Below, piece after piece: positions 816-18,006 of a stretch of 24,917 bases of DNA (its first letter is position 1; the number at the start of each line of letters is the position of its first letter). Source of the stretch: a virus. A program made the translations under genes and the position numbers. The DNA lies in IMG/VR virus record IMGVR_UViG_3300020165_000142, positions 1-24,917 of that record. One strand, 5' to 3'. A model generated the notes under the pieces. The model saw only the letters and a list, made by a program, of their open reading frames with translations, ran no database searches and was not told the DNA's origin.

Positions 816-826
816 ATCTTAGATTA
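814..826 (-). terminator. possible weak terminator of the HNH gene
   Basis: Read on the minus strand, the palindrome AATCTAAGATT overlaps the TAA of the HNH gene and is followed by a run of ten T. The stem is short and all A/T apart from one C-G pair, so termination here would be weak. Confidence 0.3.
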
Positions 827-1393
827 TAGTATAGCGCCTGAACAAATATCCAGAATCGGATGTTTCTTGAATAGTCTATATGCTCTCATATATACTTTCA
901 TATATTTTCTGTGTATGTCTTGAATCTCTGGTATTGCATTACGTTTCTCATCATATTCTTTCTTCTTTGCTTTTGCTTCTGGTATCTCTCTCTCTGTTTG
1001 TTTTCTTTCTATTACTTCTGGTCTTGCGTCATATTCTTTTTGCCATCCTCTCTTATATTCTTTATCCTTAGTCCTTCCATCTATATATCTCGGATGATTC
1101 TCACCACCCATATCTATTCCATCTATTTCTCCTCTAGCAAGTACTGAAGCAGCACCATTATCATTCTTATTTTTAAATGGAATATGTTCTATCATTTCTT
1201 TTGTAATCTTAACACCTTTGGATTCTAATAGATTAAATACATCTTTACGTTCATCACACCACATCAACCAATGTACCCACGCATGTTCTAACCTAGTAAG
1301 TTTTACAAGATTGGATGGGTTGTCACTTCCACCTACGTGTTTAGGAATAATATGATGTTTATGTATTTGTTCTTTTAAGTCTTTGTCAACCAT
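824..1393 (-). CDS. HNH endonuclease (probable homing-type)
   Basis: This 189-residue protein carries an HNH nuclease core near its N-terminus. HHIIPKHVGG supplies the first histidines (about 13-18), followed by a conserved Asn/Leu-rich loop and a terminal His (LTRLEHAWVHWLMW, about 34-47). Such nucleases use a beta-beta-alpha-metal fold to cut DNA. The rest (about 100-170) is highly charged, with repeated K/R/E-rich KxYxxxR-like units that look like DNA-contacting repeats of free-standing phage endonucleases. It is encoded against all neighbouring genes, has its own promoter at 1403-1430 with almost no leader, and is flanked by a 20-bp direct repeat. These are signs of independent acquisition. 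The recognition site cannot be deduced. Confidence 0.85.
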   Translation of the reverse strand: MVDKDLKEQIHKHHIIPKHVGGSDNPSNLVKLTRLEHAWVHWLMWCDERKDVFNLLESKGVKITKEMIEHIPFKNKNDNGAASVLARGEIDGIDMGGENHPRYIDGRTKDKEYKRGWQKEYDARPEVIERKQTEREIPEAKAKKKEYDEKRNAIPEIQDIHRKYMKVYMRAYRLFKKHPILDICSGAIL

Positions 1394-1402
1394 ATTCTAA
1401 TA

Positions 1403-1430
1403 AGTATACCATTTCTTTAGTATTTGTCAA
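1403..1430 (-). promoter_or_regulatory. sigma70-type promoter with extended -10 for the HNH gene
   Basis: On the minus strand there is a perfect -35 TTGACA (1430-1425), a 16-bp spacer ending in TGG, and a -10 TATACT (1408-1403). Nine bases separate the -10 from the ATG at 1393, so the mRNA would start only about 1-3 bases before the start codon. Confidence 0.8.
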
Positions 1431-1469: not shown

Positions 1470-1497
1470 TTGACATCGAAGGATTATGTGTTATAAT
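1470..1497 (+). promoter_or_regulatory. early-type promoter TTGACA-16-TGTTATAAT
   Basis: Perfect -35 TTGACA (1470-1475), 16-bp spacer and a perfect extended -10 TGTTATAAT (1489-1497). The next ATG is at 1505, with only seven bases after the -10. Transcription should therefore start at or next to the A of that ATG. Confidence 0.9.
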
Positions 1498-1504
1498 ATA
1501 CTAT

Positions 1505-1645
1505 ATGAATAATCAGATATATAGAAATACATTCTCATACGAGAGGAAACCGAAAGTTCCTAAAAAACTTGTTGTTAAACCTACAAGTAAAAAGAAAATA
1601 CAAAAGAAAGAGAAAGATATTATGTATTACTGGATGAAGAAATGA
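1505..1645 (+). CDS. small basic protein, probably from a leaderless mRNA
   Basis: This is a 46-residue open frame from ATG 1505 to TGA 1643-1645. The product begins MNNQIYRNTFSYERK, is rich in Lys/Arg through the middle (KPKVPKKLVVK, then SKKKIQKKEK) and ends in an aromatic patch, MYYWMKK. The frame is supported by a strong promoter whose predicted start point coincides with the ATG, and by a 3-base overlap with the next gene (ATGA). No family is recognised. The charge suggests nucleic-acid or acidic-protein binding. Confidence 0.65.
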   Translation: MNNQIYRNTFSYERKPKVPKKLVVKPTSKKKIQKKEKDIMYYWMKK

Positions 1646-2193
1646 ATATATTTTATTTACATGAGAATCCAAAGATTTGTGCAGAAATGCATTTGGATAA
1701 ACATGCATCAAAGATGTGTATTGAATATGCACAATTATTAAGTACTGCACATAGAGTTCTCGATGGTGTTGAATATTATGGTAAAACCAAAACTGGTAGA
1801 AAAGCAAAAAGATATAAACACCCAAGTTCGACTTTTGAAAATACTTTATATCTCGCAAGTCATATTAATCATCCTTGTGGTCAATGGGTAAGGGAATCTA
1901 AAAGAAACTATAATTGGTTATATGAACTTTGGATTCATTTAGGGAATGAATTTAAAAAAAGATATAGTGGTAAAGAACATTCTAGTTTAACACAATTAAA
2001 ATCTTTTCTCAAATTTACACCTAAGAATATGACGAATGGTATACACACCCAACCACCACAAGCAATGCCCGATGATGTAAAGGTGCATGGTAACAGCATT
2101 CAAGCATACAGAAACTACTACATACATTACAAAAGAAGTTTTGCAACATGGAAGAAAACTCAAATACCAGAATGGTACAGAGAAGCAATGTAA
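1642..2193 (+). CDS. conserved marine-phage protein of unknown function
   Basis: This is a 183-residue soluble protein beginning MNIFYLHENPKICAEMHLDKHASKM. The N-terminal pattern FYL..NP..CA..H.DKH..KM..EYAQLLSTAHR is one I recall from hypothetical proteins of cyanophages and other marine T4-like phages. Conserved His, Asp, Lys and Cys near the start and a polar middle (about 120-150) suggest an enzyme or nucleic-acid-binding protein, but no named catalytic motif is evident. The ATG overlaps the stop of the preceding 46-residue gene, so both are read from the promoter at 1470-1497. The C-terminal half has several Trp/Tyr residues (for example AYRNYYIHYKRSF). Confidence 0.8.
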   Translation: MNIFYLHENPKICAEMHLDKHASKMCIEYAQLLSTAHRVLDGVEYYGKTKTGRKAKRYKHPSSTFENTLYLASHINHPCGQWVRESKRNYNWLYELWIHLGNEFKKRYSGKEHSSLTQLKSFLKFTPKNMTNGIHTQPPQAMPDDVKVHGNSIQAYRNYYIHYKRSFATWKKTQIPEWYREAM

Positions 2194-2202
2194 CATATAC
2201 GC

Positions 2203-2230
2203 TTGACAGATGAGCTGAGTATGTTATAAT
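2203..2230 (+). promoter_or_regulatory. early-type promoter TTGACA-16-TGTTATAAT
   Basis: Perfect -35 TTGACA (2203-2208), 16-bp spacer and a perfect extended -10 TGTTATAAT (2222-2230). Unlike its sister promoters, it is followed by a long leader of about 90 bases before the ATG at 2326. Confidence 0.9.
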
Positions 2231-2239
2231 TATAGGTAA

Positions 2240-2317
2240 TAAGTAACAGAGGTCAGAAATACATGATAGTTACTTAAATAAATTATTTTAGAGGTCTAGC
2301 GTAAGCGGACAAAGGAG
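2240..2317 (+). promoter_or_regulatory. structured 5' leader with two hairpins before the ribosome binding site
   Basis: TAAGTAAC (2240-2247) can pair with GTTACTTA (2269-2276), an 8-bp stem with a 21-base loop. A second hairpin at 2294-2310 pairs GUCUAGC with GCGGAC-side bases around a GUAA (GNRA-type) tetraloop, with one mismatch and one wobble, directly before AAGGAG at 2312-2317. AGAGGTC occurs once in the first loop (2248-2254) and again just before and into the second stem (2290-2296). This is the only long leader among the early-type units. Confidence 0.45.
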
Positions 2318-2325
2318 AATATATT

Positions 2326-3642
2326 ATGGATAATTTTGAAGAAGTATTGTTAAATGAAGATGGAGATTTGATTAAGTTGGAGAATTTTCCTCAATTAGAT
2401 AAAGAATTTGAAAAAGTCAACGAATCTTGCAATACACAGGTTAATTTAAATACAGATAACATACAATTTAATTCTGTTATATCAACAGGATTACAGAATT
2501 TAACAAAAAAAAGTGAAGATGGAACTGTTGTTGATACTTTTTTCCAAAAAAAATTTACAGATAAAGATTTAGATACTGTAAAAAGAATAATTTCTTTAGA
2601 GGCATATCCAGAACTTTATGGTAATGAATTATCAGAAGGTATGGAATTCACAGGGTTTCAAATTGTACCCATGAATAAATTAATGACATCTATCAACAAA
2701 ACATATGGTAGTCAAATAGCTCGTCAAACTGATAATGTAAAATATAGTGATATCAAAAATAATATTTTGACAGATGGATTTAAATTAAGATATAATCCAA
2801 TAGCAGTAGTATTAAATGGAAATGGATATAGAATCGTTACTGGATATACAAGAACAAAAATATTAAATAATAATTGTCATATGGAGAATGCAATTGTAGC
2901 TCTATATAAGGTTAGTGATAATAAAACTTTTATAACAAACTCATTGAAATTCAATATGATTGATGTGCCTTCTGGTACAGCAACACAAGCAGATGTTATA
3001 GGTGCTGCTAGCGAATTAATTTCTGAAGGTGCATTAAAAAAGGACTATAAAGTAATCAGAGAATGGTTATTCACTACTTGTAAAACTGGCCCATTTACTG
3101 AGAATACTAAAGAACATATGGTACAAAGTATTTTTAATAATGCGAGTACAAGACCACAGATTTATTCATGGAAACCAGATACTATAATGGAATGGATGGA
3201 AAATCATGGTTTTACAAAATTACACCATATATATCCAAATATATCTTATGGAGCATATACAGGTACACGTACCAAAAATAATGCATACGTTAGTACAAAA
3301 AAAGGTGAAGAAAATATTATATATTTTGTGTGTGCTTATTCAGCATATACAAAAAATATGTTTACAGTAGCTAGTATATCAAATGTTCGACAATTTAAAA
3401 ATAAAAATATAAGAGTTATTATACATACAAGTACACTTGGTGATTGTTCTACAGTTAAAGGTTTAAGGGAAATGTATAATACAAGACTTGACCAACATAA
3501 TACTGGTTGGAAAACTACGTTATTTCAAATGGGTTCAGCGTTTTATAATGACGCTGATGTTAAAAACTGTAATATCGAATTATATGGTGCTTTACCAGCA
3601 ATTAGACAGGAACATAACATGGATAAACTTGTATTGTTTTAA
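2326..3642 (+). CDS. ParB/Srx-like domain protein
   Basis: This is a 438-residue protein. Residues about 110-196 resemble the ParB N-terminal/sulfiredoxin fold: a segment proposing positions to act on (QTDNVKYSDIKNNIL), then YNPIAVVL, then GYRIVTGYTRTKIL. The last matches the ParB box (V-x-G-x-x-R), in which Arg binds a nucleotide. The N-terminal 100 residues and the C-terminal 240 residues match nothing I recognise. Start choice is firm, with AAGGAG at 2312-2317 eight bases before the ATG. In phages such domains often accompany DNA methyltransferases, and one lies 1.2 kb downstream. CTPase, nuclease or regulatory activity cannot be decided from sequence alone. Confidence 0.65.
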   Translation: MDNFEEVLLNEDGDLIKLENFPQLDKEFEKVNESCNTQVNLNTDNIQFNSVISTGLQNLTKKSEDGTVVDTFFQKKFTDKDLDTVKRIISLEAYPELYGNELSEGMEFTGFQIVPMNKLMTSINKTYGSQIARQTDNVKYSDIKNNILTDGFKLRYNPIAVVLNGNGYRIVTGYTRTKILNNNCHMENAIVALYKVSDNKTFITNSLKFNMIDVPSGTATQADVIGAASELISEGALKKDYKVIREWLFTTCKTGPFTENTKEHMVQSIFNNASTRPQIYSWKPDTIMEWMENHGFTKLHHIYPNISYGAYTGTRTKNNAYVSTKKGEENIIYFVCAYSAYTKNMFTVASISNVRQFKNKNIRVIIHTSTLGDCSTVKGLREMYNTRLDQHNTGWKTTLFQMGSAFYNDADVKNCNIELYGALPAIRQEHNMDKLVLF

Positions 3643-3648
3643 TCTAGT

Positions 3649-3677
3649 TTGACTTTGCGTTATGCATATGTTATAAT
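3649..3677 (+). promoter_or_regulatory. early-type promoter TTGACT-17-TGTTATAAT
   Basis: The -35 TTGACT (3649-3654), 17-bp spacer and perfect extended -10 TGTTATAAT (3669-3677) match the other promoters of this region. The ATG at 3685 follows after seven bases, so the transcript is probably leaderless. It would drive the run of small genes and the HIT gene up to about 4527. Confidence 0.87.
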
Positions 3678-3684
3678 ATATACT

Positions 3685-3804
3685 ATGGAAAAAATAAAAG
3701 AATTGATTCTCAATGTAAATAGAATCTTATGGAATAAGAAACTAGAAAATAAAGTTCAAGATTATCTGGATAATTTATTGAAACGAATGCAAGATTATCA
3801 CTAA
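3685..3804 (+). CDS. 39-residue helical protein, probably from a leaderless mRNA
   Basis: The open frame runs from ATG 3685 to TAA 3802-3804. The product, starting MEKIKELILNVNRILWNKK, is amphipathic with heptad-spaced Leu/Ile/Val and probably one continuous helix. The start lies exactly where transcription from the promoter at 3649-3677 should begin, which supports it as a real gene despite its size. No family is recognised. It could be a small regulatory or anti-host peptide. Confidence 0.55.
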   Translation: MEKIKELILNVNRILWNKKLENKVQDYLDNLLKRMQDYH

Positions 3805-3816
3805 ATACAAACATAG

Positions 3817-3898
3817 ACTGGTAGATAACGAAAGGAAACTCTGTTAAGATGTATGAGAGAAACCTACCAGTATTTCAAATAGAATGTACGGAGTTTCT
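3817..3898 (+). ncRNA. possible pseudoknot-forming RNA element
   Basis: ACTGGTAG (3817-3824) is perfectly complementary to CTACCAGT (3864-3871). GGAAACTCT (3834-3842), inside that loop, can pair with GGAGTTTCT (3890-3898) outside it: seven Watson-Crick pairs plus a wobble at each end. The crossed pairing makes an H-type pseudoknot. A second GAGTTTC at 3930-3936 offers a competing partner. The element overlaps a 19-codon frame and precedes the 42-residue gene. This rests only on base pairing read by eye. Confidence 0.35.
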
Positions 3899-3908
3899 GC
3901 AGAAGTAA
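3849..3908 (+). CDS. possible 19-residue leader peptide
   Basis: ATG 3849 to TAA 3906-3908 encodes MYERNLPVFQIECTEFLQK. It ends one base before the ATG of the next small gene (TAA-T-ATG), a spacing typical of translational coupling, and AAAGGA lies about 12 bases upstream. It overlaps the proposed pseudoknot, so its translation could control RNA folding. At this length, chance is a real alternative. Confidence 0.3.
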   Translation: MYERNLPVFQIECTEFLQK

Positions 3909-3909
3909 T

Positions 3910-4038
3910 ATGAAATATTTTCTTTTATCGAGTTTCGAAAAAATAAAAACGAGAAGTAAACACAAATTACTTCGAATAAAATTTCTACAAGGATTTCTAA
4001 TTGGGGTTATTACATATTATTTTTTATTTGTTATCTAA
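3910..4038 (+). CDS. 42-residue membrane protein upstream of the HIT gene
   Basis: The frame from ATG 3910 to TAA 4036-4038 encodes a basic N-terminus (KIKTRSKHKLLRIK, about 11-24) and then one hydrophobic segment (FLQGFLIGVITYYFLFVI, about 25-42). This is a positive-inside single-pass layout with almost nothing after the membrane helix. The stop codon directly abuts the ATG of the HIT-family gene (TAA-ATG), and the start follows the 19-codon frame by one base, so the frames look coupled. No family is recognised. Confidence 0.55.
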   Translation: MKYFLLSSFEKIKTRSKHKLLRIKFLQGFLIGVITYYFLFVI

Positions 4039-4527
4039 ATGAATAAACAGAAACCACCCACGCCACCACCTACAGTAATGAGAAAATCAGATGTTCCAGT
4101 CGAAGAGAACTCTTGTATCTTTTGTGATTATAAAGAAGAGGATATGTTAATGCCTGAACTTACGTTTGGTAGACATTTGATTTCTGAAATTGCATATTGT
4201 ATTCTTGATAAGTATCCAGTTACGAAAGGACATACTCTTATAATTCCAAAACGACATGTAGAATTTATATCAGAATTATCTTTTCTGGAAATGGAACATA
4301 TCTTTATTCTAACAAAACACAGAATACCAGAAGCAGAAAAAGAATTCGAAGATATTACTGGTTGGAATTTTGGAGTGAATCAAGGAGAATCAGCAGGACA
4401 AACAATATCACATCTGCATTTTCATTTGATTCCACGTAGAAAGAATGATGTAACAAATCCAATCGGTGGCATTCGAAACATAATTCCAAACAAAGGTGAC
4501 TACACAACACTTGACAATACCTATTAA
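4039..4527 (+). CDS. HIT-family nucleotide hydrolase/transferase
   Basis: This is a 162-residue protein. The histidine triad HLHFHL (His125, His127, His129) is the catalytic motif of the HIT family, whose members hydrolyse nucleotide phosphoramidates or dinucleoside polyphosphates through a His-nucleotide intermediate. CIFC at 26-29 is the usual N-terminal zinc-binding pair. KGHTLIIPKRHV (63-74) and GVNQGESAGQTISH (112-125) are the standard nucleotide-binding segments. The first about 20 residues are Pro/Lys-rich and variable. Translation starts directly after the stop of the 42-residue membrane protein. Likely substrates are AMP-type conjugates or Ap4A; the true substrate is not visible. Confidence 0.93.
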   Translation: MNKQKPPTPPPTVMRKSDVPVEENSCIFCDYKEEDMLMPELTFGRHLISEIAYCILDKYPVTKGHTLIIPKRHVEFISELSFLEMEHIFILTKHRIPEAEKEFEDITGWNFGVNQGESAGQTISHLHFHLIPRRKNDVTNPIGGIRNIIPNKGDYTTLDNTY

Positions 4528-4539
4528 ATCTGTTATAAT
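4511..4539 (+). promoter_or_regulatory. early-type promoter TTGACA-17-TGTTATAAT inside the HIT gene end
   Basis: Perfect -35 TTGACA (4511-4516), a 17-bp spacer and perfect extended -10 TGTTATAAT (4531-4539). The -35 lies within the last codons of the HIT gene. The ATG of the next small gene is at 4549, so the leader would be about 1-3 bases. Confidence 0.88.
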
Positions 4540-4548
4540 TAAAGAATA

Positions 4549-4644
4549 ATGGAAAATACAATAACAGAAATGGGTATTCTACGTGGAATCTTATTCATAT
4601 CATTTATCTTTATTTTTGTAGTTTGTAAAATTCATGAAGATTAG
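4549..4644 (+). CDS. 31-residue single-pass membrane peptide
   Basis: The frame from ATG 4549 to TAG 4642-4644 encodes a polar start (MENTITEMGILR) and one strongly hydrophobic helix (GILFISFIFIFVVC, about 13-26), ending KIHED. It starts within ten bases of a perfect -10 and ends two bases before the next ATG at 4647. Its position at the head of the zinc-ribbon and methyltransferase unit supports it, though its length alone would not. It is the second one-helix membrane peptide in under 1 kb. Confidence 0.5.
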   Translation: MENTITEMGILRGILFISFIFIFVVCKIHED

Positions 4645-4646
4645 AA

Positions 4647-4847
4647 ATGAGAATAACTGATTTAAAATTTAGAGAAGGTTTATATCTTTTTGATGAAGAA
4701 CTCCATGTCATAGCATCCAAATGTTCCACATGTAATAACAACATAAGATTTAAAACAAATGGAATGTGTGTATGGTGTTTTCATCATGGAAAACATTCTA
4801 CTCTACCAACAACTACTGATGAGGATTTTGAAATATACTGGGCATAA
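4647..4847 (+). CDS. small zinc-ribbon protein
   Basis: This is a 66-residue protein with two CxxC knuckles, Cys26/Cys29 and Cys41/Cys44, separated by 11 residues, followed by HHGKH (46-50). That is the pattern of a treble-clef or zinc-ribbon fold binding one zinc ion. The N-terminal 20 residues are mixed charged and hydrophobic; the tail is acidic. The stop is three bases before the methyltransferase ATG, so the two are surely co-transcribed. It may be a nucleic-acid- or protein-binding accessory factor, but nothing in the sequence ties it to methylation beyond location. Confidence 0.75.
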   Translation: MRITDLKFREGLYLFDEELHVIASKCSTCNNNIRFKTNGMCVWCFHHGKHSTLPTTTDEDFEIYWA

Positions 4848-4850
4848 ATT

Positions 4851-6110
4851 ATGAAAACAATAATTAACGAAGATTCTTTTATACACTTAAAAACATTAGA
4901 TGAAAATACTTTTGATAGTTGCGTAACCGACCCACCTTACGAATTAGGTTTTATGGGAAAGAGTTGGGATGGAACAGGAATAGCATTCAATGTAGATTTC
5001 TGGAAAGAAGTATTACGAACTTTAAAACCAGGCGGACATCTGATTGCTTTTTCGGCATCAAGAAACTATCATAGAATGGCAGTTGCAATTGAAGATGCTG
5101 GTTTTGAAATTCGTGACCAAATCATGTGGATATATGGAACTGGATTTCCAAAGAGTTTAAATCTTGGAAAAGCAATTGATAAGAAAGAAGGTAACGATAG
5201 AGAAGTTATTGGTACTACTAATCAACAAGATATAACAAGTGGAAATTATGTTCATGGCCCATCACAAAGAAAAGATATTCCAATCACAAAGGGAACTTCT
5301 GAATGGGAAGGTTGGGGAACTGCATTGAAACCAGCACATGAGCCAATCGTGTTAGCAAGAAAACCTTTATCAGAAAAATCTATTGTAGATAATGTATTGA
5401 AACATGGAACAGGTGGTATCAACATAGATGAATGTAGAATTGAAGGCGAAGCAAAACACCCAGATACAAATCCAGATTTTCGTGACCAAGGCAAGAAATC
5501 AAAAGAAACAATCGGTGTAGATAAATTAAGTTTTGGTCAAGTCCAAAATGCAAAGAGAAAGAAAACTCAAAGACAACCTAGAAATAAAGATGGAGTTTGG
5601 ACAGAAGAAAATTCTGGAATGAAAGCAGAAGGAACAGAGTTCGCTGATGCCGACCCAAGAGGAAGATTTCCAGCAAATGTTCTTCATGATGGAAGTGAAG
5701 TTGTAGAACAACAATTTCCAGAAGTAGCAAAATCAAATCCTACACCAAGAAATAGAAACAAAGAAAATCATGAAAACAATATATTCACAAATCCAGAAAC
5801 CGATAACCAAATAGAATATGATGACGAAGGCAGAGCATCAAGATTTTTCTATGTTCCTAAAGCACACAAGAAAGAAAGAGATGGAAGTACACACCCAACA
5901 ATCAAACCAGTTGAGTTAATGAAATATCTTGTAAGATTAATTACACCGAAAGATGGAACTGTTCTCGACCCATTTGCTGGAACAGGAACAACAGGAGAAG
6001 CAGCTATTCAAGAATCTGTTTCTTGTTATCTTATCGAAAAAGAAAAGGAATATATTAAGGACATAGAGAAAAGATTAAATAAATATAATCAGTTGTTAAT
6101 GGACTTATAA
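4851..6110 (+). CDS. DNA methyltransferase, beta class (N6-adenine or N4-cytosine)
   Basis: This is a 419-residue protein. The catalytic motif IV, DPPY, is at 27-30 near the N-terminus, and the AdoMet-binding motif I, DPFAGTGTT, is at 373-381 near the C-terminus. This circular order defines the beta group of amino-methyltransferases (N6_N4_Mtase family). The region between about 110 and 340 is long, polar and Lys/Asn-rich and should hold the target recognition domain. THPTIKPVELMKYLVRL, just before motif I, is typical of the family. DPPY is compatible with either m6A or m4C. No partner nuclease is visible in the window, so it is probably an orphan enzyme that marks phage DNA or evades host restriction. 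Confidence 0.92.
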   Translation: MKTIINEDSFIHLKTLDENTFDSCVTDPPYELGFMGKSWDGTGIAFNVDFWKEVLRTLKPGGHLIAFSASRNYHRMAVAIEDAGFEIRDQIMWIYGTGFPKSLNLGKAIDKKEGNDREVIGTTNQQDITSGNYVHGPSQRKDIPITKGTSEWEGWGTALKPAHEPIVLARKPLSEKSIVDNVLKHGTGGINIDECRIEGEAKHPDTNPDFRDQGKKSKETIGVDKLSFGQVQNAKRKKTQRQPRNKDGVWTEENSGMKAEGTEFADADPRGRFPANVLHDGSEVVEQQFPEVAKSNPTPRNRNKENHENNIFTNPETDNQIEYDDEGRASRFFYVPKAHKKERDGSTHPTIKPVELMKYLVRLITPKDGTVLDPFAGTGTTGEAAIQESVSCYLIEKEKEYIKDIEKRLNKYNQLLMDL

Positions 6111-6159
6111 AATAAATAGAAATATGTGTACATTAGAATGGTTACGGAGAAAACATAAA

Positions 6160-14294: not shown

Positions 14295-14302
14295 GATAAA
14301 TA
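14295..14302 (+). promoter_or_regulatory. possible late promoter variant (GATAAATA)
   Basis: Seven of eight bases match TATAAATA. The site is eight bases before the ATG of the membrane protein at 14310, which has no visible ribosome binding site. If used, the transcript would begin close to the start codon. Confidence 0.35.
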
Positions 14303-14309
14303 CAGTATA

Positions 14310-15251
14310 ATGTATTTTGCACTTCTTACTCTTATAGTTGCAATTTCTATATCTGGAGTAGCTGCATATTATTCCATTATAGGTCTTACATCAATTTTTC
14401 CTGCCGCTTTTATTCCTATTATCGTAATGGGAATAGTTCTGGAAATAGGAAAACTTATAACTGCTAGTTGGCTTTATCGAAACTGGAAACAAACAAGTCT
14501 TTTTTTAAAAACCTATCTATCAATCGCATTAGTGATTTTAATGTTAATCACTTCAATGGGTATCTTTGGATTCTTATCTAAATCACATATTGAACAAGGT
14601 TCTGGATTATCTAATACCGTTCTATCTATTGAAAAATTAAATACAAAGAAACAACAAGAAGAAAGAAAGATTGTTCGTGCAGAAGATTCAGTAGATAGAA
14701 TTAATCGTGGAATAGATAGAAGCATTGATAGAGGTAATATTACTCGAGCATTTTCATTTGAAAAAAAGCAAAGAGAAAAATTAGATTATTATAATGATAT
14801 CATTACAACAGCACAAACTAAGATAGATGGATATGAAGATGCTCAAGCAGAGTTGAGATATAAGGTAAAAAACTTTGAAAGAGAAATCGGGCCGATAAAA
14901 TATATTGCAGAACTTATCTATGGACAAGACGCAAAATTATATTTGGAGAAATCAGTACGAGGAGTTATTCTACTTATAATTTTTGTGTTCGACCCACTAG
15001 CAATTGCTTTGATTATTGCTGCGAATCAAACAATACTTAATAATAGAAAACGAAAAATTCCTGTGAATAAAAAGAAAGAATATAAACCTAAGAAAACTGA
15101 AATAATTACAAAAGATGAATATGAAGAAGTAGTGGTAGAAGATGAACATGGAAATCAATTTAAAAGATACAGAGAAAAAGTAAAAAGATACTTCGATGAT
15201 AATTGGTATAAAATGGAAGATAGTGCTGATAAACCCGAAAAATTTGACTAA
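14310..15251 (+). CDS. four-helix membrane protein with internal coiled coil
   Basis: This is a 313-residue protein. Hydrophobic helices are visible at about 2-22, 30-50, 67-90 and 217-240. Between the third and fourth helices lies a charged helical region (about 105-205, rich in E, K, R, Q) with heptads, probably a coiled coil. The last 70 residues are soluble and strongly charged, with alternating Lys-rich and Glu-rich patches. I recall membrane proteins of this plan in marine T4-like phages near fibre genes, without assigned function. Possible roles are membrane remodelling, superinfection exclusion or lysis control. It lacks a holin-like short size and any catalytic motif. The start is at the first ATG; no good ribosome site precedes it. 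Confidence 0.75.
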   Translation: MYFALLTLIVAISISGVAAYYSIIGLTSIFPAAFIPIIVMGIVLEIGKLITASWLYRNWKQTSLFLKTYLSIALVILMLITSMGIFGFLSKSHIEQGSGLSNTVLSIEKLNTKKQQEERKIVRAEDSVDRINRGIDRSIDRGNITRAFSFEKKQREKLDYYNDIITTAQTKIDGYEDAQAELRYKVKNFEREIGPIKYIAELIYGQDAKLYLEKSVRGVILLIIFVFDPLAIALIIAANQTILNNRKRKIPVNKKKEYKPKKTEIITKDEYEEVVVEDEHGNQFKRYREKVKRYFDDNWYKMEDSADKPEKFD

Positions 15252-15262
15252 TAAATAATCAT

Positions 15263-17978: not shown

Positions 17979-18006
17979 AGTATAACATAACTGGCGGCCA
18001 TGTCAA
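17979..18006 (-). promoter_or_regulatory. early-type promoter TTGACA-16-TGTTATACT for the VWA gene
   Basis: On the minus strand there is a perfect -35 TTGACA (18006-18001), a 16-bp spacer ending TGT and a -10 TATACT (17984-17979). The GTG at 17972 follows after six bases. This is the same architecture as the promoters at 1403-1497 and differs from the late promoters of the flanking structural genes. Confidence 0.85.

Follow-up and report, generated by a model that had tools for sequence, protein, structure and literature searches.

The cI mRNA of phage lambda, transcribed from PRM, is the classic leaderless mRNA and, when taken through the same measurement as the promoters described below as a positive control, its -10 hexamer lay exactly 6 nt before the ATG. 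Leaderless middle and late mRNAs are known from the lytic Thermus myovirus phiYS40, according to the account of Sevostyanova 2007 given in PMC3594737. In Deinococcus-Thermus, mRNAs are leaderless where a -10 element precedes the start codon by approximately 6–7 bp; these cases concern bacterial genomes, often with no clear -35 element, and phages are not treated (PMC12340547). In T4, the 8-bp box of late genes is located roughly one helical turn ahead of the start site (PMC2988020).

The DNA analysed here, referred to as the window, is a 24.9-kb IMG/VR fragment (32.7 % GC) containing T4-type gp5 and gp6 baseplate genes. Its nearest named gp6 relatives are the Pelagibacter phages Mosig and HTVC008M and the Methylophilales phage Melnitz (52–55 % identity), and its source is a marine T4-like myovirus related to these phages of SAR11 and OM43. 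As in T4, early promoters of the sigma70 type and candidate late boxes (NATAAATA) are present. In the window and its relatives, however, the start codon very probably lies on, or at most 3 nt behind, the transcription start at part of the early and late promoters, yielding leaderless mRNAs that are free of Shine-Dalgarno (SD) sites and whose later genes would be translated by coupling. T4 differs in having an ATG 6–9 nt behind the -10 hexamer at none of 13 early-type sites, with starts mostly 20–35 nt downstream.

The resemblance to lambda cI extends to the -10 element close before the ATG, the TG extension and the missing SD, but cI is one repressor gene of a temperate phage, whereas the window and its relatives show the layout at many lytic-cycle genes behind full-consensus -35 boxes. 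As in phiYS40, as far as it is described in the account cited above, a lytic myovirus would have many leaderless mRNAs (predicted in the relatives of the window); the host phylum of phiYS40 is rich in leaderless genes, whereas these relatives infect SAR11 or OM43 proteobacteria and involve T4-type late promoters. The Deinococcus-Thermus spacing of about 6–7 nt is found at 1505 and 3685 (7 nt), while 4549 and 1393(-) have 9 nt. The leaderless mechanism is already known from lambda cI and phiYS40, but its extent in T4-like phages appears to be unreported. A literature search turned up no description of leaderless transcripts for marine phages of the T4 type, which is weak evidence of absence, and those sections of the Melnitz and pelagimyophage papers that discuss promoters do not discuss a leaderless layout.

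Extended promoters and the genes behind them

The term gap is used here for the number of nucleotides between the -10 hexamer, or the late box, and the start codon. The strict early class consisted of TTGACA or TTGACT, a spacer of 16–17 nt ending in TGn, and TATAAT or TATACT, with 11–12 of 12 consensus matches. Six such promoters were observed in the window compared with 0.06 expected from dinucleotide shuffles (Table 1), and four of them have an ATG at gap 6–9, an arrangement with a count of zero in 300 dinucleotide shuffles (P~6e-4 for at least four, given six promoters). When promoters were counted broadly there was no excess (90 versus 98.7 by chance), and the signal is therefore confined to the strict class.

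Table 1. Promoters, late-type boxes and associated genes of the window
Feature	Position	Strand	Remarks
Divergent extended promoter	1403–1430	-	TTGACA-N16(TGG)-TATACT; -10 at 1408–1403; gap 9 to ATG 1393
HNH endonuclease gene	824–1393	-	Gap 9; predicted near-leaderless (1–3 nt leader); HNH match from residue 7
Extended promoter	1470–1497	+	TTGACA-N16(TGT)-TATAAT; -10 at 1492–1497; gap 7 to ATG 1505
46-aa ORF	1505–1645	+	Gap 7; predicted leaderless; stop overlaps ATG 1642 (ATGA)
phrog_624 gene ('DNA binding protein')	1642–2193	+	Second cistron in the window
Extended promoter (12/12)	2203–2230	+	95-nt leader; AAAGGAG before ATG 2326
Extended promoter	3649–3677	+	TTGACT-N17(TGT)-TATAAT; -10 at 3672–3677; gap 7 to ATG 3685
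39-aa ORF	3685–3804	+	Gap 7; predicted leaderless; conserved in L004, L006 and L007
Extended promoter	4511–4539	+	TTGACA-N17(TGT)-TATAAT; -10 at 4534–4539; gap 9 to ATG 4549
31-aa hydrophobic ORF	4549–4644	+	Gap 9; predicted near-leaderless (1–3 nt leader); conserved in L004–L007
Late-type box AATAAATA	6111–6123	+	Range includes the exactly 5 nt to ATG 6124, 93-aa ORF; predicted leaderless
Late-type box GATAAATA	14295–14309	+	Range includes gap 7; 2-nt leader predicted for the 313-aa membrane protein starting at ATG 14310
Late-type box AATAAATA	15250–15262	+	Range includes the exactly 5 nt to ATG 15263, 48-aa ORF; predicted leaderless
Extended promoter	17979–18006	-	TTGACA-N16(TGT)-TATACT; -10 at 17984–17979; GTG 17972 at gap 6, ATG 17948 at gap 30

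The first-pass annotation had given five -10-to-start spacings (7, 7, 9, 9 and 6 nt), all of which are correct in the sequence, and had read them as leaderless or near-leaderless starts with no room for a ribosome binding site, used repeatedly as an SD-free strategy in the early region. This reading is supported by comparison for 1505, 3685, 4549 and 1393(-), where all start codons are ATG and no SD site was found upstream. It probably fails for GTG 17972(-), which was rejected as a start because homologues in HTVC008M and Mosig have their first residue level with ATG 17948(-) or no more than one residue away; that start implies a leader of about 24 nt behind promoter 17979(-). Promoter 2230 is also leadered, and the start-adjacent layout is not universal among the early-type promoters of the window.

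The 1393(-) gene and ORF 1505 have divergent promoters in one short intergenic region. A later start for the 1393(-) gene is excluded, since the HNH motif begins so close to the N-terminus that it would be destroyed. A single locus for this gene, with a weak partial match outside the HNH motif, was recovered from IMG/VR. The N-terminal part of the protein resembles several places in T4 (49–58 % over 33–39 aa), perhaps the T4 homing endonucleases.

Conservation of the small leading frames, on which the first-pass reading also depended, was observed for two of the three. ORF 3685 has 97 % identity in L004 and L007 and 68 % in L006, where the homologue is two codons longer with an unchanged end. 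ORF 4549 has 84 % identity in L004 and L007 and 56–60 % over 25 aa in L005 and L006, the first half being conserved; the -10 element is at the identical gap of 9 in L004 and L007, and the downstream half is the same in L006. No relatives of ORF 1505 were found in homology searches, and in relatives without this frame a promoter at the same position serves the phrog_624 gene directly, at gap 6 (L065), gap 7 (L133) or gap 11 (L056–L062). In the window, where the stop of ORF 1505 overlaps the next start, ribosomes probably reach the phrog_624 gene through translational coupling. Similarly, the gene at 4647 begins 2 nt past the stop of ORF 4549, and neither this gene nor that at 1642 has an SD. 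In the window's early operons, the genes that follow are SD-free and either overlap the preceding stop or lie 0–3 nt from it, making coupling likely, and the chief role of the small leading frames may be to let ribosomes enter. Nearby, positions 440–790 read by eye like an IscA/HesB-type protein and positions 4039–4527 encode a HIT-domain protein.

Gene content around these promoters varied. The 438-aa gene in region 2231–3677 of the window has no Pfam or PHROG match and is missing from L004 and L007; in L006 another insert, which includes a methyltransferase-like gene, lies between duplicated promoter-plus-ATG repeats, and L007 has an extra insert, bounded by promoters on both sides, ahead of its homologue of ORF 4549. 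In L006, promoter and ATGGAAAAAATAAA occur once more together at the far end of the inserted block, indicating that promoter and start move as one unit of approximately 45 bp. Mobile regulatory cassettes of T4-type phages are the subject of Arbiol 2010 (cited in PMC4177764), and the presence of promoters at junctions of gene gain and loss (L006, L007 and window 2231–3677) is alike. Unlike in those cassettes, the repeat unit in L006 is a promoter plus start codon, and no terminator-like stem-loop, which in T4 cassettes adjoins the early promoter, was found adjoining promoters 1470, 3649 or 4511 of the window.

Early-type layout in related phages and hosts

Loci of relatives were fetched via protein homology alone, blind to promoters, while comparison contigs were random viral contigs drawn solely for holding the exact promoter (promoter-only scan). 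A promoter was counted as early leaderless when an ATG opening an ORF of at least 25 codons was present at gap 6–9. At phrog_624 loci this was the case for 11 of 16 non-redundant exact promoters, compared with 11 of 141 in the random viral contigs. For strong promoters in whole records, the window and four related sets gave 17 of 33 at gap 6–9 and T4, Syn9 and P-HM1 gave 0 of 43 (Fisher, P=3e-8). A looser set of 96 non-redundant promoters contained 24 at gap 6–7, eight at gap 8–9, five at gap 10–13, four at gap 14–19 and 17 at gap 20–40, with an SD present in none of the 24 at gap 6–7 versus 10 of the 17 at gap 20–40. The first-pass annotation had proposed comparing the -10-to-ATG distance in related phages, and the spacing does recur in many of them, before genes with well-anchored N-termini.

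In IMG/VR record G002, a T4-type RNase H, the gp33 late coactivator, a PD-(D/E)XK nuclease and a 337-aa protein all begin with an ATG at gap 6 or 7; judging by its opening residues alone, we regard the last as the primase. The RNase H aligns over its full length (residues 1–287) with Melnitz and cyanophage homologues. With the GenBank starts, the gap was 6 for endonuclease V of HTVC008M (start 76476) and for gp33 of Mosig, the latter with a weaker promoter, while the primase and DNA polymerase of HTVC008M had gaps of 11 and 12. A hold-out set of 80 gp6 structural-gene loci had an ATG at gap 6–9 for 1 of 20 strong early-type promoters, indicating that the early habit is concentrated in some genes, regions or lineages. 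A pyrimidine was present at -1 in 22 of 24 early gap 6–7 starts; this fits initiation at the A, but leadered starts are also T-rich at this position (15 of 21).

Within 99 Pelagibacteraceae genomes, the exact promoter occurred five times versus 11 times for a reversed control, and three of the five were on a phage-like contig. Host mimicry as the cause gains no support from this near absence: provided that the window phage infects SAR11, itself an assumption, its layout is no copy of an arrangement common in the host. At weaker promoters, leaderless use in these genomes amounted to 16 cases versus nine in the reversed control. The full-consensus extended promoter was rarer than the reversed control, as if avoided. 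One Pelagibacteraceae assembly contains a 14.6-kb T4-like contig (G081:C11, L627) with curli-type genes and one predicted leaderless promoter, which as a link to the host is a hint and no more.

Start codons at T4-type late boxes

Late genes, absent from the first-pass annotation, share the layout of a start codon at the promoter with their own promoter type. Boxes of the T4 late type were pooled from the window, its relatives, HTVC008M, Mosig, Melnitz and the gp6 hold-out, and the peak of ATG codons behind them was one base wide, at exactly gap 5. An ATG was present at this gap for 23 of 207 TATAAATA boxes (P~3e-21), 9 of 90 AATAAATA boxes and 10 of 97 G/CATAAATA boxes, compared with approximately one ATG per position at neighbouring gaps. 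In HTVC008M nine ATGs were located at gap 5 and none at gaps 0–4 or 6; each of the nine coincides with an annotated start, and the genes include a gp25-type wedge, the tail tube cap, the DNA end protector, the tape measure and csgF. All seven gap-5 ATGs of Mosig are also annotated starts, with a further three gap-5 ATGs in Melnitz and two in P-HM1. None was detected for 65 boxes of T4 or 38 boxes of Syn9. Late boxes were found upstream of structural genes. The gp6 hold-out, fetched after the late peak had been seen, kept a weaker excess (7 of 75 at gap 5–6, plus 4 of 36 for AATAAATA).

Both gap-5 boxes of the window are of the AATAAATA rather than the TATAAATA variant. An exact peak at gap 5 is what would be seen if transcription began at the A of the ATG and, as initiation at A predicts, a pyrimidine occupied -1 in 38 of 42 late gap-5 starts, with the reservation made above about T-rich leadered starts. 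The strongest indication of a link between the ATG and +1 is that late boxes, which differ in their distance to the start site, show a gap of another length that is just as constant.

Alternative explanations and implications

The position of +1 was inferred from promoter anatomy. On this basis, initiation by host sigma70 polymerase at TTGACW-TGnTATAAT promoters would fall on the A of the ATG at gap 6–7 and 1–3 nt ahead of the ATG at gap 8–9, and a late polymerase of the gp55 type acting on NATAAATA boxes would initiate on the A at gap 5. Ribosomes would then bind directly at the 5'-AUG of the mRNA with no need of SD pairing, in the manner of lambda cI, while stop-start coupling would give access to the cistrons that follow.

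The promoters may be real while the adjacent ATG is not a working start, with transcripts reaching a downstream start that has its own ribosome binding site and the small frames being incidental. Promoters 2230 and 17979(-) do serve such leadered starts, and the three frames at 1505, 3685 and 4549 are just 31–46 codons long, the first without a relative. However, ORFs 3685 and 4549 have been kept as ORFs with an unchanged start, the SD-free genes that overlap or nearly touch a small frame (1642 and 4647) fit coupling, equal spacing is found before long genes with anchored N-termini in relatives, and the HNH motif of the 1393(-) gene starts at residue 7, which together make this explanation improbable. 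It is very improbable that the TATAAT elements are unused and that transcription comes from further upstream, the leader being made by processing or by another promoter. Read-through from upstream genes could occur, but the window promoters match 11–12 of 12 consensus positions with a TG extension and are 100 times commoner than in shuffles, and the diverging 1393(-) and 1505 promoters have no same-strand gene close upstream from which to read through.

A different objection accepts leaderless mRNAs and disputes solely that they are deliberate. Close spacing could be a by-product of compaction, in which leaders were lost without selection in a host that tolerates SD-free starts, and would then have no strategic or regulatory meaning. 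In favour of this, the genomes are AT-rich with little spare space, SD sites are scarce among the downstream genes, many of which are coupled, and random viral contigs also have an ATG at late gap 5 (7 of 114). Yet the gaps are not smeared, with the late peak at exactly 5, the early peak at 6–7 and few at 10–19, and T4 is equally AT-rich but has none. Compaction is thus a possible but rather unlikely account of the spacing.

If start codons are placed at +1 as proposed, the phage could also stage its translation, with early operons leaderless and coupled, many late genes using an SD, and a phage-encoded ribosomal protein bS21 redirecting ribosomes from one class of mRNA to the other. Among the early-type genes of the window (1505–6110) an SD is present only at the inserted 2326 gene, and many late genes have AGGAG; the leaderless late genes predicted at gap 5 speak against a clean early/late split, and we regard the proposal as speculative and unlikely to hold. 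bS21 is reported as core in pelagimyophages (PMC7029224), and it was present in two (G007:C1:23017-23175 and G009:C1:16631-16789) among 12 partial virus records plus T4, the records being too fragmentary for a correlation.

The phages of this group infect some of the ocean's most abundant bacteria. If the proposed layout is true, a T4-like group has moved its start codons onto +1 at both sigma70-type and gp55-type promoters, and leaderless expression would be shown to work throughout the large genome of a lytic phage of proteobacteria. The layout makes exact, countable predictions in cultured phages (nine late genes of HTVC008M and seven of Mosig), improves start-codon calls and provides a natural setting for asking why these phages carry bS21.
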